From positions 1 through 38,465 of the forward strand of contig JAVEET010000352.1 of the NCBI GenBank assembly GCA_030840295.1: 38,465 nt of DNA, given 5' to 3'. Below are positions 11,225 to 15,363 of the stretch, in pieces. Source of the stretch: Pseudonocardiales bacterium (lineage in GTDB: Bacteria; Actinomycetota; Actinomycetes; Mycobacteriales; Jatrophihabitantaceae). A program made the translations under genes and the position numbers. How positions within the stretch are numbered: position 1 is the first letter of the stretch; every line of letters starts with the position of its first letter. The notes beneath the pieces were generated by a model that worked only from the letters and a program-made list of their open reading frames with translations, was not told the DNA's origin and made no database searches.

Positions 11225-11398
11225 ATGTACTTCACCGACCGCGGCATCGAGGAACTGGAGAACCGGCGCGGTGACGAGCAGGTCAGTCTGGCCTGGTTGG
11301 CGGGCCGCCTGCAGGCCTTTGTCGATCTGAACCCCGAGTTCGAGGTCTCGATAGAACGGCTCGCCACCTGGCTTGCCCGCGCGGACGACGAGGACTGA
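11225..11398 (+). CDS. Small conserved protein, DUF6104-like (57 aa)
   Basis: A short open frame starts with ATG directly after the oxidoreductase stop, with GGGAGAG just upstream inside the previous gene. It encodes 57 residues beginning MYFTDRGIEELENRRG and ending in a helix LATWLARADDED. I recognise this as the small actinobacterial family DUF6104 by its MYFTDRGIEELE start and VDLNPEFEVSIERLATWLAR end. Its function is unknown. It is soluble and acidic, with no cysteine. Tight linkage suggests co-transcription with the upstream gene. Confidence 0.8.
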   Translation: MYFTDRGIEELENRRGDEQVSLAWLAGRLQAFVDLNPEFEVSIERLATWLARADDED

Positions 11399-11449
11399 CC
11401 GGCGGCAGGTAGGCCGGAACACCGACAGCTGACGGGCGGTACAACAGGC

Positions 11450-12787
11450 GTGGCCGAGTGGAGCGGAATCCGGAGCCGGGGCGACCAGCTGCTGGCCCGC
11501 GTCCGATCGCTCGGCGTTCGGGAAACGCTGTCGATCGAACGCGAGGTGTTCCGGCGGATCCTCAAATCGACGCTCGCCGCCACGCTGGCCTGGTTGGTGG
11601 CCGAACTGATCAACAGCCCGCGGCCGGCCCTCGCCGCCCTTGCCGCCATCATCGTCCTGCAGATCACCGTCCGGGCATCGCTGGCCCGCAGCATCCAATT
11701 CACGGTGGCTGTGACGCTGGGCCTAGGCGGCGCAGTCGCTCTGGGCCACCTGCTCGGCGTCAGCTGGTGGTCGATCGGCGTGGTGGTGCTGGCCGGCCTG
11801 ATTGTGGGAGAAGTGCTGCGGTTGGGGCCGTTGTCCGGCCAGGTCGCAATCTCGGCCCTACTCGCGCTTTCGCTGGGCAACGGCTATGGAATCGAACGCA
11901 CCATTGATACGGCCATCGGTGCGCTCATCGGGGTTCTGGTCAACGTGCTGATCAGCCCGGCCTCCTACGTTTCCGAGGGCGGGCGGACACTGCGCGCGAT
12001 CGGCGAGGACCTCGGTGCGCTGCTCGATGACATGGGCACCGGACTCACCAAGCAGCCCAGTGAGGAGACCGTGCGCCGTTGGCTATCCCGCGCTCGCGAC
12101 CTCAGTGCCGACTCCCGGGCCGCGATCGCTACCGTCAAGCAGGGCGAGGAGAGTCTCCAGTTCAATCCACGGGCCCGCGGCGAGCTTGCTCAGCTTGCCC
12201 GGCTGACCGAGGCCAGGCGTGCTCTGGACCACGCGATAAATCAGACCCGGGGCATTGCCAGAAGCCTGCTCGACATGCCCATGCCCGCCCCCGAGCCTGA
12301 GATCACGGCCGCACTCCCCCGGCTCGGCGAGATGATGTGCGCAGCCGGCAAGGCGGTCGCGGCATTCGGCCGGTTACAGGAGCAGCCTGGTTCGGCAGAG
12401 GATCGCGCCTTGTTGGAAGGAAGTCCTGCGACGGCCGCCCGCTTGGCGGCCCGAGCAGTGCATGCCCTCGGGTCGCTGACCATCGACGATGCCGACCCTG
12501 TCTCGGTGGCCGACGGGGGCGAAGCGCGGCCGTCCGCCGAGCCATCGCGCGATGCCCAGCCCTCGCCCGATGCCGAGCTCGCGACCAAGGGCGAGGCCGG
12601 ACGGCTGCTGGTGTCGGTCTTCGTCGACGTGGAACGACTCGTTCATGAGGTCGACATCATCTCGGGCGCTCATCGGGCCGCGGTCGCTGATTCTGAGGCG
12701 GAATCGGATCACGATGCAGCTTCAGACTCAGCTTCGGTATCGAGGTCGGATCCAGCGGATCCGATCAGCGGCAAGCAACAGCAATAG
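11450..12787 (+). CDS. FUSC/aromatic acid exporter (ArAE)-type membrane protein
   Basis: This 445-residue membrane protein has a cluster of hydrophobic segments at about residues 38-175, for example WLVAELINSPRPALAALAAI, FTVAVTLGLGGAVALGHLL and IGVVVLAGLIVGEVL. A long cytoplasmic helical part follows. The lone membrane block with a conserved polar stretch (LKSTLAATLAWLVAE) fits the FUSC/ArAE superfamily, whose members are thought to export aromatic acids. The C-terminal 60 residues are acidic, low in complexity and rich in Ser, Asp and Ala, ending SGKQQQ. The start GTG 11450 lacks a clear ribosome-binding site, so an internal start is possible. The transport substrate is unknown. Confidence 0.72.
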   Translation: MAEWSGIRSRGDQLLARVRSLGVRETLSIEREVFRRILKSTLAATLAWLVAELINSPRPALAALAAIIVLQITVRASLARSIQFTVAVTLGLGGAVALGHLLGVSWWSIGVVVLAGLIVGEVLRLGPLSGQVAISALLALSLGNGYGIERTIDTAIGALIGVLVNVLISPASYVSEGGRTLRAIGEDLGALLDDMGTGLTKQPSEETVRRWLSRARDLSADSRAAIATVKQGEESLQFNPRARGELAQLARLTEARRALDHAINQTRGIARSLLDMPMPAPEPEITAALPRLGEMMCAAGKAVAAFGRLQEQPGSAEDRALLEGSPATAARLAARAVHALGSLTIDDADPVSVADGGEARPSAEPSRDAQPSPDAELATKGEAGRLLVSVFVDVERLVHEVDIISGAHRAAVADSEAESDHDAASDSASVSRSDPADPISGKQQQ

Positions 12788-12796
12788 GGATGCAGG

Positions 12797-12895
12797 TCAA
12801 TCCCAGTGATGCGACCCGCCGCCCACCGCCAGCAGGAACAACGCGGCGAGGGCAACGATGACCAGCCCAGTGCCCGACCCAGTCATGGTGATCAT
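12797..12895 (-). CDS. 32-residue single-span membrane peptide with perfect Shine-Dalgarno
   Basis: On the minus strand ATG 12895 opens a 32-codon frame ending in TGA at 12799-12797. It encodes a short polar start (MITMTGSGTG), one hydrophobic stretch LVIVALAALFLLAVGGG and a tail SHHWD. In front is AAGGAGGTGA (12910-12901), fully complementary to the anti-Shine-Dalgarno sequence and five bases from the ATG. This is the strongest ribosome-binding site in the host part of the window, which argues that this tiny gene is translated. It resembles small single-pass membrane peptides in general; I recognise no family. It lies between the FUSC-type gene (convergent) and the YczE-type gene (same strand, upstream). 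Confidence 0.65.
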   Translation of the reverse strand: MITMTGSGTGLVIVALAALFLLAVGGGSHHWD

Positions 12896-12944
12896 GATGG
12901 TCACCTCCTTCACAGGACCCATTCTGTCCCGCGGTTTACACAAT

Positions 12945-12956
12945 TACAAATTTGTA
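12945..12956. promoter_or_regulatory. Perfect 12-base palindrome TACAAATTTGTA, candidate operator
   Basis: TACAAATTTGTA is a perfect palindrome in an AT-rich patch (about 12936-12957) of an otherwise GC-rich region. It lies about 50 bases upstream of the 32-residue membrane peptide gene, which is read leftward. The position suits an operator or promoter element. Which regulator binds is unknown. Confidence 0.4.
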
Positions 12957-12999
12957 CACCGACTGGCTGATCACAGCTCATGTGTCCAATCACGGAACG

Positions 13000-13650
13000 C
13001 TAGATCGCCTCCTGTTCAGTAAATGGCCCTGCTGGGCCATGCCGTACGTTGACCGCCGGAGCCGGCGGAACCCCGTGGCCGAGCAGGCGCAGGAAGAATT
13101 GCGCGATCGGGCCGATGGCGAGGGCGAATACCACCGTGCCGATACCGACAGTGCCACCGAGTAGCCATCCCACGGCCAAGACGGAGAGTTCGATGATGGT
13201 CCGGGTCAACCGAAGCGAAACGCCCGTGCGGGCGGCCCAACCGGTCATCAGGCCGTCCCGTGGGCCAGGCCCGAGGCCGGCGGTGATGTAGAGCCCGGTA
13301 GCCAGGCCGCACAAGAGGATGCCGCCGGCCAGCAGGGCGTACCGGACCGGCAACGCATGCTGGGCCGGCAGCACTTCAAGGGTCAGGTTCAGCGACAGTC
13401 CGACCATCACCACGTTGCTCACCGTCCCCAAGCCTGGCAGCTGACGGATCGGAATCCATCCGAGCAGGACGACAACTCCCACCAAGATCGACACCGTGCC
13501 GATCGCGAGATGAACCCGATTCGCCAGTCCCTGATGCAGAACGTCCCACGGATCCAGGCCGAGTCCCGCTCGTACCTGCATGGCCGCCGAGGCGCCATAG
13601 AGCCACAGTCCGACGTACAACTGGACCAGCCGCCGGATCCAAGACCACAT
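13000..13650 (-). CDS. YczE/YitT-type integral membrane protein
   Basis: This is a 216-residue membrane protein with about five hydrophobic segments. I start it at ATG 13650 (MWSWIRRLVQLYVGLWLYG) because family members begin just before this first span. The open frame continues to 13890, but the extra 80 residues look non-coding and cover the divergent promoter region. The motif RAGLGLDPWDVLHQGL near residue 28 and the later GLYITAGLGPGPRDGLMTG are the paired glycine/aspartate repeats typical of the YczE group, giving an internal two-fold pattern. The function is unknown. Genes of this group are often divergent from a MocR-type regulator, as here, and are thought to be its target. Confidence 0.82.
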   Translation of the reverse strand: MWSWIRRLVQLYVGLWLYGASAAMQVRAGLGLDPWDVLHQGLANRVHLAIGTVSILVGVVVLLGWIPIRQLPGLGTVSNVVMVGLSLNLTLEVLPAQHALPVRYALLAGGILLCGLATGLYITAGLGPGPRDGLMTGWAARTGVSLRLTRTIIELSVLAVGWLLGGTVGIGTVVFALAIGPIAQFFLRLLGHGVPPAPAVNVRHGPAGPFTEQEAI

Positions 13651-13750
13651 GCCTTTCCACACCCCGCCAGACGGCCGGGAGCGCACCCCCGCAACAGAGC
13701 TGGACGCGCCGGGACTTGAAGTTTCACTGATCACCGATCCAGCCTTCCAG

Positions 13751-13791
13751 GCCAATACCATCCATCCCACTGCCAATTCTCGCAAATTGGC
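13751..13791. promoter_or_regulatory. Repeated GCCAAT sites, candidate MocR operator
   Basis: GCCAAT occurs at 13751-13756 and 13772-13777, a spacing of exactly 21 bases (two helical turns). The second copy is also the left arm of a perfect inverted repeat, GCCAATT (13772-13778) with AATTGGC (13785-13791). The cluster lies between the YczE-type gene and the divergent MocR-type gene. MocR-group regulators commonly bind direct repeats, so this is a plausible operator. This is an inference. Confidence 0.45.
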
Positions 13792-13899
13792 CCGTTTTCG
13801 TTCCCTTGCGGCCAGCACAATAGGGGCATAGGCACAAGCTGCCCCTGGTTTGAGCCGATTCCCAGGCCACTTCACCCGAGGCCATGTCAAACTGGACCG

Positions 13900-15363
13900 G
13901 TGAACGCCTCCAACCGAGTAGGACCTCGGGCGCTGGCCGCCCTGCTGCCCGACCTCGACCGGCAGTCCGGTCCCCGCTATCGCGCGCTGAGTTCCGCCCT
14001 GACGGCCCTGTTGTTGGACGGCCGGCTCGCAGGCGGTACCCGCTTGCCTTCGGAGCGGGACCTGGCCGCTCAGCTGCGGGTAAGTCGTGCCACCGCCACC
14101 GCTGCCTATGACGATCTAGCCAGCAACGGAATGTTGCTGCGTCGACGCGGCTCGGGAAGCTATCTGATACTCCCCGCTGCCGCCCGGGTGGCCGGGCCCG
14201 GAGCGCGGATGGCCCGCAACCCGCTAACCCAGGACACCATCGATCTGTCCATCGCCAGCCTGCCCGCGGTGCCAGGCCTGCTACAGGCCGCGACCCTGGC
14301 GGCCCTCGAGCCGCTCGGCCGCCTCGCCGCCGCCGATGGTTATCACCCCTATGGTCTCGACGAGCTGCGCGATGCCGTGGCTGCCAGATACCGGATGCGC
14401 GGGGTCGAGACCAGTCGTGAACAGATCCTGATCACCAACGGTGCCCAGCATGCCTTCGATCTGATCCTGCGCGCCCTGGTGAGCCCAGGCGACCGGGTGC
14501 TGACCGAGCTGCCGAGCTACCCCGGTGCTCTGGAGGCCATCAAGGCCCACAGTGCCCGCACCGTCGCGGTACCGCTGAGCGCCGCGCATGGGTGGGACTC
14601 CGGCGCGATCGCCAACGCCCTGCTGCAGACTGCGCCCCGACTGGCCTACCTGATCCCGGATTTCCACAATCCGACCGGGTCGTTGATTCCGACCGCTCAG
14701 CGGCGCCAGACTGCTGCGGCGGCACGCCGCTCGGGAACCCGGATCGTCGTCGACGAGTCCTTCATCGACATCGATCTGCGCGCCGATGCCGAGCGGATCG
14801 AGTCACCGCTGCCAATGGCCGCACTCGACCCCTCAGGGTTCAGCATCGGGTCACTTTCCAAGCCGATCTGGGGCGGTCTGCGGATCGGCTGGATCCGCGC
14901 CGATGTCGCGGACATCCAACGACTGGCCGTTGCCCGCGCAAGAGGCGACATGAGCGGCGCCGTACTGGAACAGCTGGTGGCGCTCGAGCTACTGCGCGAT
15001 CTCGACGCGAACCTGGGACCGCGGCTGGCCCAGCTGGGCGAGCAACGAGATGCGCTGCTGGCTGAGCTGACCCGCCGCCTACCGGGCTGGCGGGCCGCCC
15101 GTCCGGCCGGTGGGCTCTCCGCGTGGGTGGAGTTGGACGCCCCTGCGGCGACCCCGCTGACTCATCTGCTGGAGCATCGCGGCATCCTGATCAGCCCGGG
15201 ATCACGCTTCGCCCCCGACGGGGCGTTGGAGCGATTCTTACGGATCCCCTTCGCGTTGCCGACACCCCGCCTGGTCGAGGCGGTTGCCGTGCTAGCCCAG
15301 ACCTGGACCGAGCTGGACCCCAAGCGGCACGCCAGGACGGAGACGTCCCTGGTGACCGCGTGA
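13900..15363 (+). CDS. MocR-type transcriptional regulator (GntR HTH fused to aminotransferase domain)
   Basis: This 487-residue regulator combines an N-terminal GntR winged helix (about 20-95, with RLPSERDLAAQLRVSRATATAAYDDL) and a fold-type I aminotransferase domain (about 115-480). The PLP lysine is in SIGSLSKPIWGGLRIGW and the conserved PDFHNPTG segment is near residue 253. MocR proteins use the aminotransferase domain to sense PLP or an amino compound. The start is GTG 13900. It is divergent from a YczE-type membrane protein, the arrangement known for the YczR subgroup, so the likely role is control of that neighbour. The natural effector is unknown. Its 3' end faces the malic enzyme across 29 bases. 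Confidence 0.88.
   Translation: MNASNRVGPRALAALLPDLDRQSGPRYRALSSALTALLLDGRLAGGTRLPSERDLAAQLRVSRATATAAYDDLASNGMLLRRRGSGSYLILPAAARVAGPGARMARNPLTQDTIDLSIASLPAVPGLLQAATLAALEPLGRLAAADGYHPYGLDELRDAVAARYRMRGVETSREQILITNGAQHAFDLILRALVSPGDRVLTELPSYPGALEAIKAHSARTVAVPLSAAHGWDSGAIANALLQTAPRLAYLIPDFHNPTGSLIPTAQRRQTAAAARRSGTRIVVDESFIDIDLRADAERIESPLPMAALDPSGFSIGSLSKPIWGGLRIGWIRADVADIQRLAVARARGDMSGAVLEQLVALELLRDLDANLGPRLAQLGEQRDALLAELTRRLPGWRAARPAGGLSAWVELDAPAATPLTHLLEHRGILISPGSRFAPDGALERFLRIPFALPTPRLVEAVAVLAQTWTELDPKRHARTETSLVTA

Follow-up and report, generated by a model that had tools for sequence, protein, structure and literature searches.

Membrane proteins of 28–49 amino acids that bind transporters are established, namely MgtS, MgtR, MgtU and AcrZ, and modulating larger membrane proteins is a well documented role at this size (PMC10710835, in part). 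Type I toxins and TimP measure 18–51 residues, are mostly hydrophobic and lie in the membrane (PMC7667032, in part). A third described system is YczR–YczE, in which a MocR regulator is encoded divergently from the membrane protein gene yczE; no small peptide gene is mentioned for this pair in the portions of PMC4944035 cited here. A PMC literature search limited to the pairing of yczE with a small membrane protein returned no paper joining the two.

Here we describe a 32-codon gene beside a YczR–YczE pair in the window, the whole 38,465-nt stretch of actinobacterial DNA that was analyzed. Its product is like MgtS, MgtR, MgtU and AcrZ in size and in having a single hydrophobic helix. Unlike them, it matches no Pfam or NCBIfam family and comes from another phylum. 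The type I toxins and TimP offer a second possible likeness, in size and hydrophobicity, yet the peptide gene has a strong, unhidden ribosome site and a stable place behind yczE. The YczR–YczE pair itself occurs without the peptide in most loci examined.

The peptide gene and its product

The gene, recognized as one for a small membrane protein from homologs, protein-like substitution and a helix at residues 2–26, occupies positions 12,797–12,895 of the minus strand. It runs from an ATG at 12,895–12,893 to a TGA at 12,799–12,797 and encodes the 32-residue peptide MITMTGSGTGLVIVALAALFLLAVGGGSHHWD. The Shine–Dalgarno sequence AAGGAGGTGA (12,901–12,910, minus strand) lies 5 nt before the ATG, with CCATC as the spacer. 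A preliminary description had assigned a membrane peptide to 12,797–12,910; these coordinates are exact, and the strand, which it left unstated, is minus. Translation of the interval on the plus strand yields a hydrophilic fragment. On the strand of yczE, 104 bp separate the gene from the yczE stop; on its other side, a convergent FUSC/ArAE-type gene stops 9 bp away.

We counted the pattern AAGGAGGTGA-N3..9-ATG. It occurred once in the window versus never in 100 shuffles, and four times in the 4.65-Mb genome (G000) versus never for the reversed-pattern control. These counts bear out the earlier view that such a ribosome site is unlikely by chance. The other three perfect sites of the genome cluster on contig C281, no more than 7 kb apart (L111, G000:C281:36000-47000). 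This region looks like a mobile element; its translations read like an FtsK/TraD-like ATPase, a DNA methylase and an ImmA/IrrE-like protein.

The single hydrophobic span that had been proposed is supported by a best 19-residue mean hydropathy of 2.31 and by an AlphaFold model (mean pLDDT 78, used for the helix only) with a helix at residues 2–26. A coding gene of <50 codons and a helix of membrane-spanning length, the features looked for in a single-span small membrane protein (<50 amino acids), were both found. All 12 copies described below have one such span (mean 2.28–2.91 over 19 residues) with no Lys or Arg ahead of it, and a short polar tail follows, the net charge ranging from –2 to +3. 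Among the positions that vary least are Ala15, Ala18 and Gly27. The His-His-Trp-Asp tail highlighted earlier is indeed present in the window peptide, but as a conserved feature it did not hold up, being confined to G000 and G012; other copies carry SDHR, SHHSD, SKHE, RKHH, SHQH, RRS, NKRRR or RNKRDE. The window tail may resemble that of MgtS, but the tail is not conserved in the relatives.

When the 12 members were searched against Pfam, NCBIfam and PHROGs, no family matched. The best weak matches had E values of 0.5 (Pfam), 0.0057 (NCBIfam, Rumino_NPXTG) and 0.05 (PHROG); for the window copy, Rumino_NPXTG scored E 3.1 and 8.2 bits, against a cut-off of 23.5. Rfam gave one match, which scored below the gathering score and lies inside the FUSC gene.

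Relatives and evidence for coding

Searching 24 genomes of the family with the 32 residues (E ≤ 1) gave matches in 10 genomes. Each match was read, leaving 10 true copies in nine genomes, the window's own included: one each in G000, G012, G015, G010, G019, G020, G021 and G018, and two in G017. Matches in G006 and a second one in G021 (L010, L012) were pieces of long frames. An order-wide profile search added the yczE-linked copies of G018 (E 0.003) and G017 (E 0.014), for a total of 12 copies of 31–34 amino acids. Nine of these lie behind yczE. The other three are paralogs elsewhere in G017 and G018 that adjoin gltB and a DUF58 gene, away from yczE; one G017 paralog ends ∼30 bp before the DUF58 ORF. 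A purine-rich ribosome site precedes the ATG in 10 of the 12 copies and is weak in the yczE-linked copies of G017 and G018. Behind the G018 paralog, before gltB (the glutamate synthase gene), stand two stacked, very stable hairpins (L083 5216-5330, z –8.9).

Across 298 genomes of the order, the profile found members in nine genomes, all in the family of the window. Among the matches listed, those in other families (E up to 0.345) were partial profile matches, mostly inside long frames, and three outside matches read by hand (L023, L080, L081) were not members. In 394 genomes of the class, a draw that need not include other members, G000 was the sole member at E ≤ 0.01. Plasmids and phages gave no match to the peptide at E ≤ 1. 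These searches suggest that the gene is most likely restricted to this lineage, one actinobacterial family.

Two further matches, in G000:C54 and G012:C265 (E 1e-4 and 1e-5), belong to a different hydrophobic ORF of 46 amino acids without a good ribosome site and were not counted. This small ORF (L045, G000:C54:19266-19355, minus strand; L044, G012:C265) is conserved in the two genomes, has a weak ribosome site and is flanked by an HU-like gene and by a gene for a membrane protein, cobS-like by appearance.

Substitution rates were estimated by the Nei–Gojobori method. For G000/G012, dS was 0.28 and dN 0.03 (dN/dS ∼0.1). The corresponding dS and dN values were 1.03 and 0.28 for G000/G015, 1.71 and 0.30 for G000/G010, 0.46 and 0.19 for G019/G020, 0.67 and 0.19 for G020/G021, and 0.09 and 0.014 for G018b/G017b. 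Constraint between distant copies is only moderate on these estimates, given the values for G015/G010 (dN 0.56, dS 0.87) and for the paralog pair G018b/G017c (dN 0.49, dS 1.00). Between G018 and G017, the yczE-linked copies show nine base differences, distributed 1, 0 and 8 over codon positions 1, 2 and 3; all nine are silent, and the proteins differ by one added Asn. Summed over five non-overlapping pairs, mismatches at the three codon positions were 24/15/41 (chi-square p = 0.0014). These comparisons show protein-level selection on the peptide gene, which we regard as almost certainly real. The relatives preserve the frame, start, length and hydrophobic span, and 10 of the 12 copies also the ribosome site. 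The preliminary description had named a lack of such conservation as what would count against it; its proposal of a genuine small membrane-peptide gene stands, while the role it raised, in regulating a transporter or a stress response, is a hypothesis.

The yczE locus and the upstream region

The yczE ORF (13,000–13,890, minus strand) encodes a YczE-type membrane protein that matches NCBIfam NF052291 with 253 bits over residues 86–268. The true start is probably near residue 86. The first 85 of the 296 codons (13,634–13,890) are probably non-coding, since the family match begins at residue 86 and the aligned G012 stretch contains two stops. Divergent from yczE is the gene for a YczR-like, MocR-type regulator (13,900–15,363, plus strand; Pfam GntR and Aminotran_1_2), which has V-D-E, the YczR signature (PMC4944035), within 'VVDES'. 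This is the arrangement of the YczR–YczE pair (PMC4944035, in part). Just before the MocR gene, at 13,865–13,897, two GGCCA repeats 15 bp apart and a TGGAC resemble, but do not match, the YczR motif GGCCA-N12-TGGCC (PMC4944035). The FUSC/ArAE-type membrane protein gene (11,450–12,787, plus strand; Pfam ArAE_1, FUSC_2) converges with the peptide gene. Next to it lies a DUF6104 gene (11,225–11,398, plus strand; PF19599), which is the convergent neighbour in relatives without FUSC.

We compared yczE loci across the 24 family genomes. Of 24 loci given, 22 were best loci with readable downstream DNA; the G007 locus was unreadable (contig end) and the second G019 locus lacks the peptide. Weak YczE matches L072–L074 were outside the scan, and G023 is without YczE. 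The peptide is present in 9 of the 22 loci and absent from 13, and in all nine gene-bearing genomes a copy lies directly behind yczE, on its strand. The order kgd – MocA-like – DUF6104, with yczE convergent to the last, is kept at most loci, so the absences concern the same site. The stops of yczE and of the convergent gene are 150–373 bp apart with the peptide (8 loci) versus –170 to +38 bp without it (11 loci), G019, G022 and G003 being not measurable. Across these loci, the peptide site is an indel. The suggestion that relatives would carry the peptide downstream of YczE- or FUSC-type genes was thus borne out for yczE, at 9 of 22 loci, and in part for FUSC, which adjoins four of those nine. 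In the window's genus, the four loci with the peptide have FUSC and the five without it have no FUSC there. The link is not general, because in other genera the peptide is present without FUSC.

On a YczE tree, the presence label required four changes; none of 500 shuffles needed so few. The peptide-bearing members of the window's genus, four in number, grouped together with moderate support. The pattern is compatible with one gain and several losses, or with a few gains. In the family of G094, the 14 best of 18 yczE matches (four weak ones left out) all have a MocR neighbour, and none has the peptide. Hydrophobic ORFs at three loci of this family (L096, L097, L101) seem to be the last part of a longer frame, and no ribosome site precedes them.

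We aligned the region from the yczE stop to the peptide ATG (12,896–12,999, minus strand), where the peptide's own promoter presumably lies. Within it is a 24-bp box, TGTACAAATTTG-N6-TGTAAA (12,935–12,958, minus strand), found ∼40–83 bp before the peptide ATG in the four gene-bearing genomes of the window's genus. Each of these genomes has a single such box, and the other 20 of the family have none; it probably serves the peptide gene as a regulatory or promoter element. A scan of 11,400–14,100 on both strands found no sigma-70 consensus promoter, so that, if the box belongs to the promoter, the window copy is likely to depend on an activator or on a different sigma factor. No YczR-type GGCCA site was seen in the gap upstream of the peptide. 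Different, mutually similar elements (TAAC-NG-NTAC...GNTAA) precede the copies of G019, G020 and G021 and the paralogs. With up to three mismatches, TTTACAGGTACN5GTACCGCTAA occurs three times in the 24 genomes, each time before a paralog; the reversed control gave two. Judged by position, the upstream elements look like –35/–10 promoters with a repeat in the spacer. Since three paralogs in one genus have a promoter element of their own, the gene behaves as a self-contained cassette. Comparison of the loci shows a unit of putative promoter plus ORF that can occur, be missing or be duplicated while leaving the neighbouring genes undisturbed.

Candidate roles of the peptide

On balance, and by a modest degree, we favour a lineage-restricted, single-pass membrane protein of 31–34 residues, expressed from its own promoter, that would tune a larger membrane protein; the tuning role we infer by analogy. 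The neutral N-terminus and hydrophobic helix would enter the cytoplasmic membrane, leaving the short polar tail probably on the inner side. By packing against a larger membrane protein, the helix would then tune that protein's activity or stability whenever the dedicated promoter is active. As a single candidate for this partner YczE ranks first, though it is a rather doubtful one. It cannot need the peptide, because 13 of 22 yczE loci, mostly with the same neighbours, lack it; among these genomes, YczE is not an obligate partner. The paralogs, by gltB and the DUF58 gene rather than yczE, weaken any single-partner model.

Could the peptide instead be a dedicated accessory subunit that binds YczE and is made in addition to it? 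Such a subunit would suit the finding that each of the nine gene-bearing genomes has a copy immediately after yczE and in its orientation. It is nonetheless unlikely given the 13 of 22 loci with yczE alone, the 14 loci of G094's family that keep a MocR neighbour and have no matching small gene, the paralogs away from yczE, and the absence of YczR's reported GGCCA motif from the upstream gap. A membrane-damaging toxin of a type I toxin–antitoxin-like pair, kept in check by an adjacent or antisense RNA, is also unlikely. Length, a single hydrophobic span, patchy presence and paralogs do fit such toxins (PMC7667032, in part), as do the two strong hairpins (z –8.9) behind the G018 paralog. Yet folding of the window peptide mRNA is not unusual (z –0.45), nor is that of G018b or G019 (–0.23 and +1.59). 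One paralog (L085) reached z –2.87. Many type I toxins have an mRNA that needs processing or unfolding before it is translated, but folding by itself is not decisive on this point. The ribosome site is strong, the yczE-linked copy keeps one place across four genera, the sigma-70 scan of 11,400–14,100 offered no promoter-like site for an antisense RNA on either strand, and plasmids and phages had no matches (E ≤ 1).

GC-rich DNA has many short ORFs, but a chance ORF, or a non-coding RNA with a fortuitous ribosome-like site, is very improbable in view of the syntenic homologs and of the frame, start, length and synonymous bias kept in five non-overlapping pairs. Hardly credible is a leader peptide that controls a downstream gene by attenuation: the G017 paralog ending ∼30 bp before the DUF58 ORF would be so placed, whereas in the window a convergent gene follows directly on the peptide gene, leaving nothing downstream for it to control.

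A wider reading, which we put forward tentatively and consider unlikely, is that self-contained cassettes, each a promoter plus a 31-residue membrane peptide, form a family, not described before, within a single actinobacterial family. Each genus would have a dedicated operator, the 24-bp box in the window's genus and TTTACAGGTACN5GTACCGCTAA for the paralogs of another, and the cassettes would settle beside different genes and give membrane-level control, possibly via a regulator whose only target is the peptide.

Selection acts on a 32-codon gene that lies outside Pfam, NCBIfam and PHROGs and possesses a dedicated upstream site. With the gene either there or missing at one fixed site behind yczE, the loci offer a clean natural comparison for what such peptides do. 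The peptide may also shed light on YczE, the function of which is poorly known (PMC4944035, in part).
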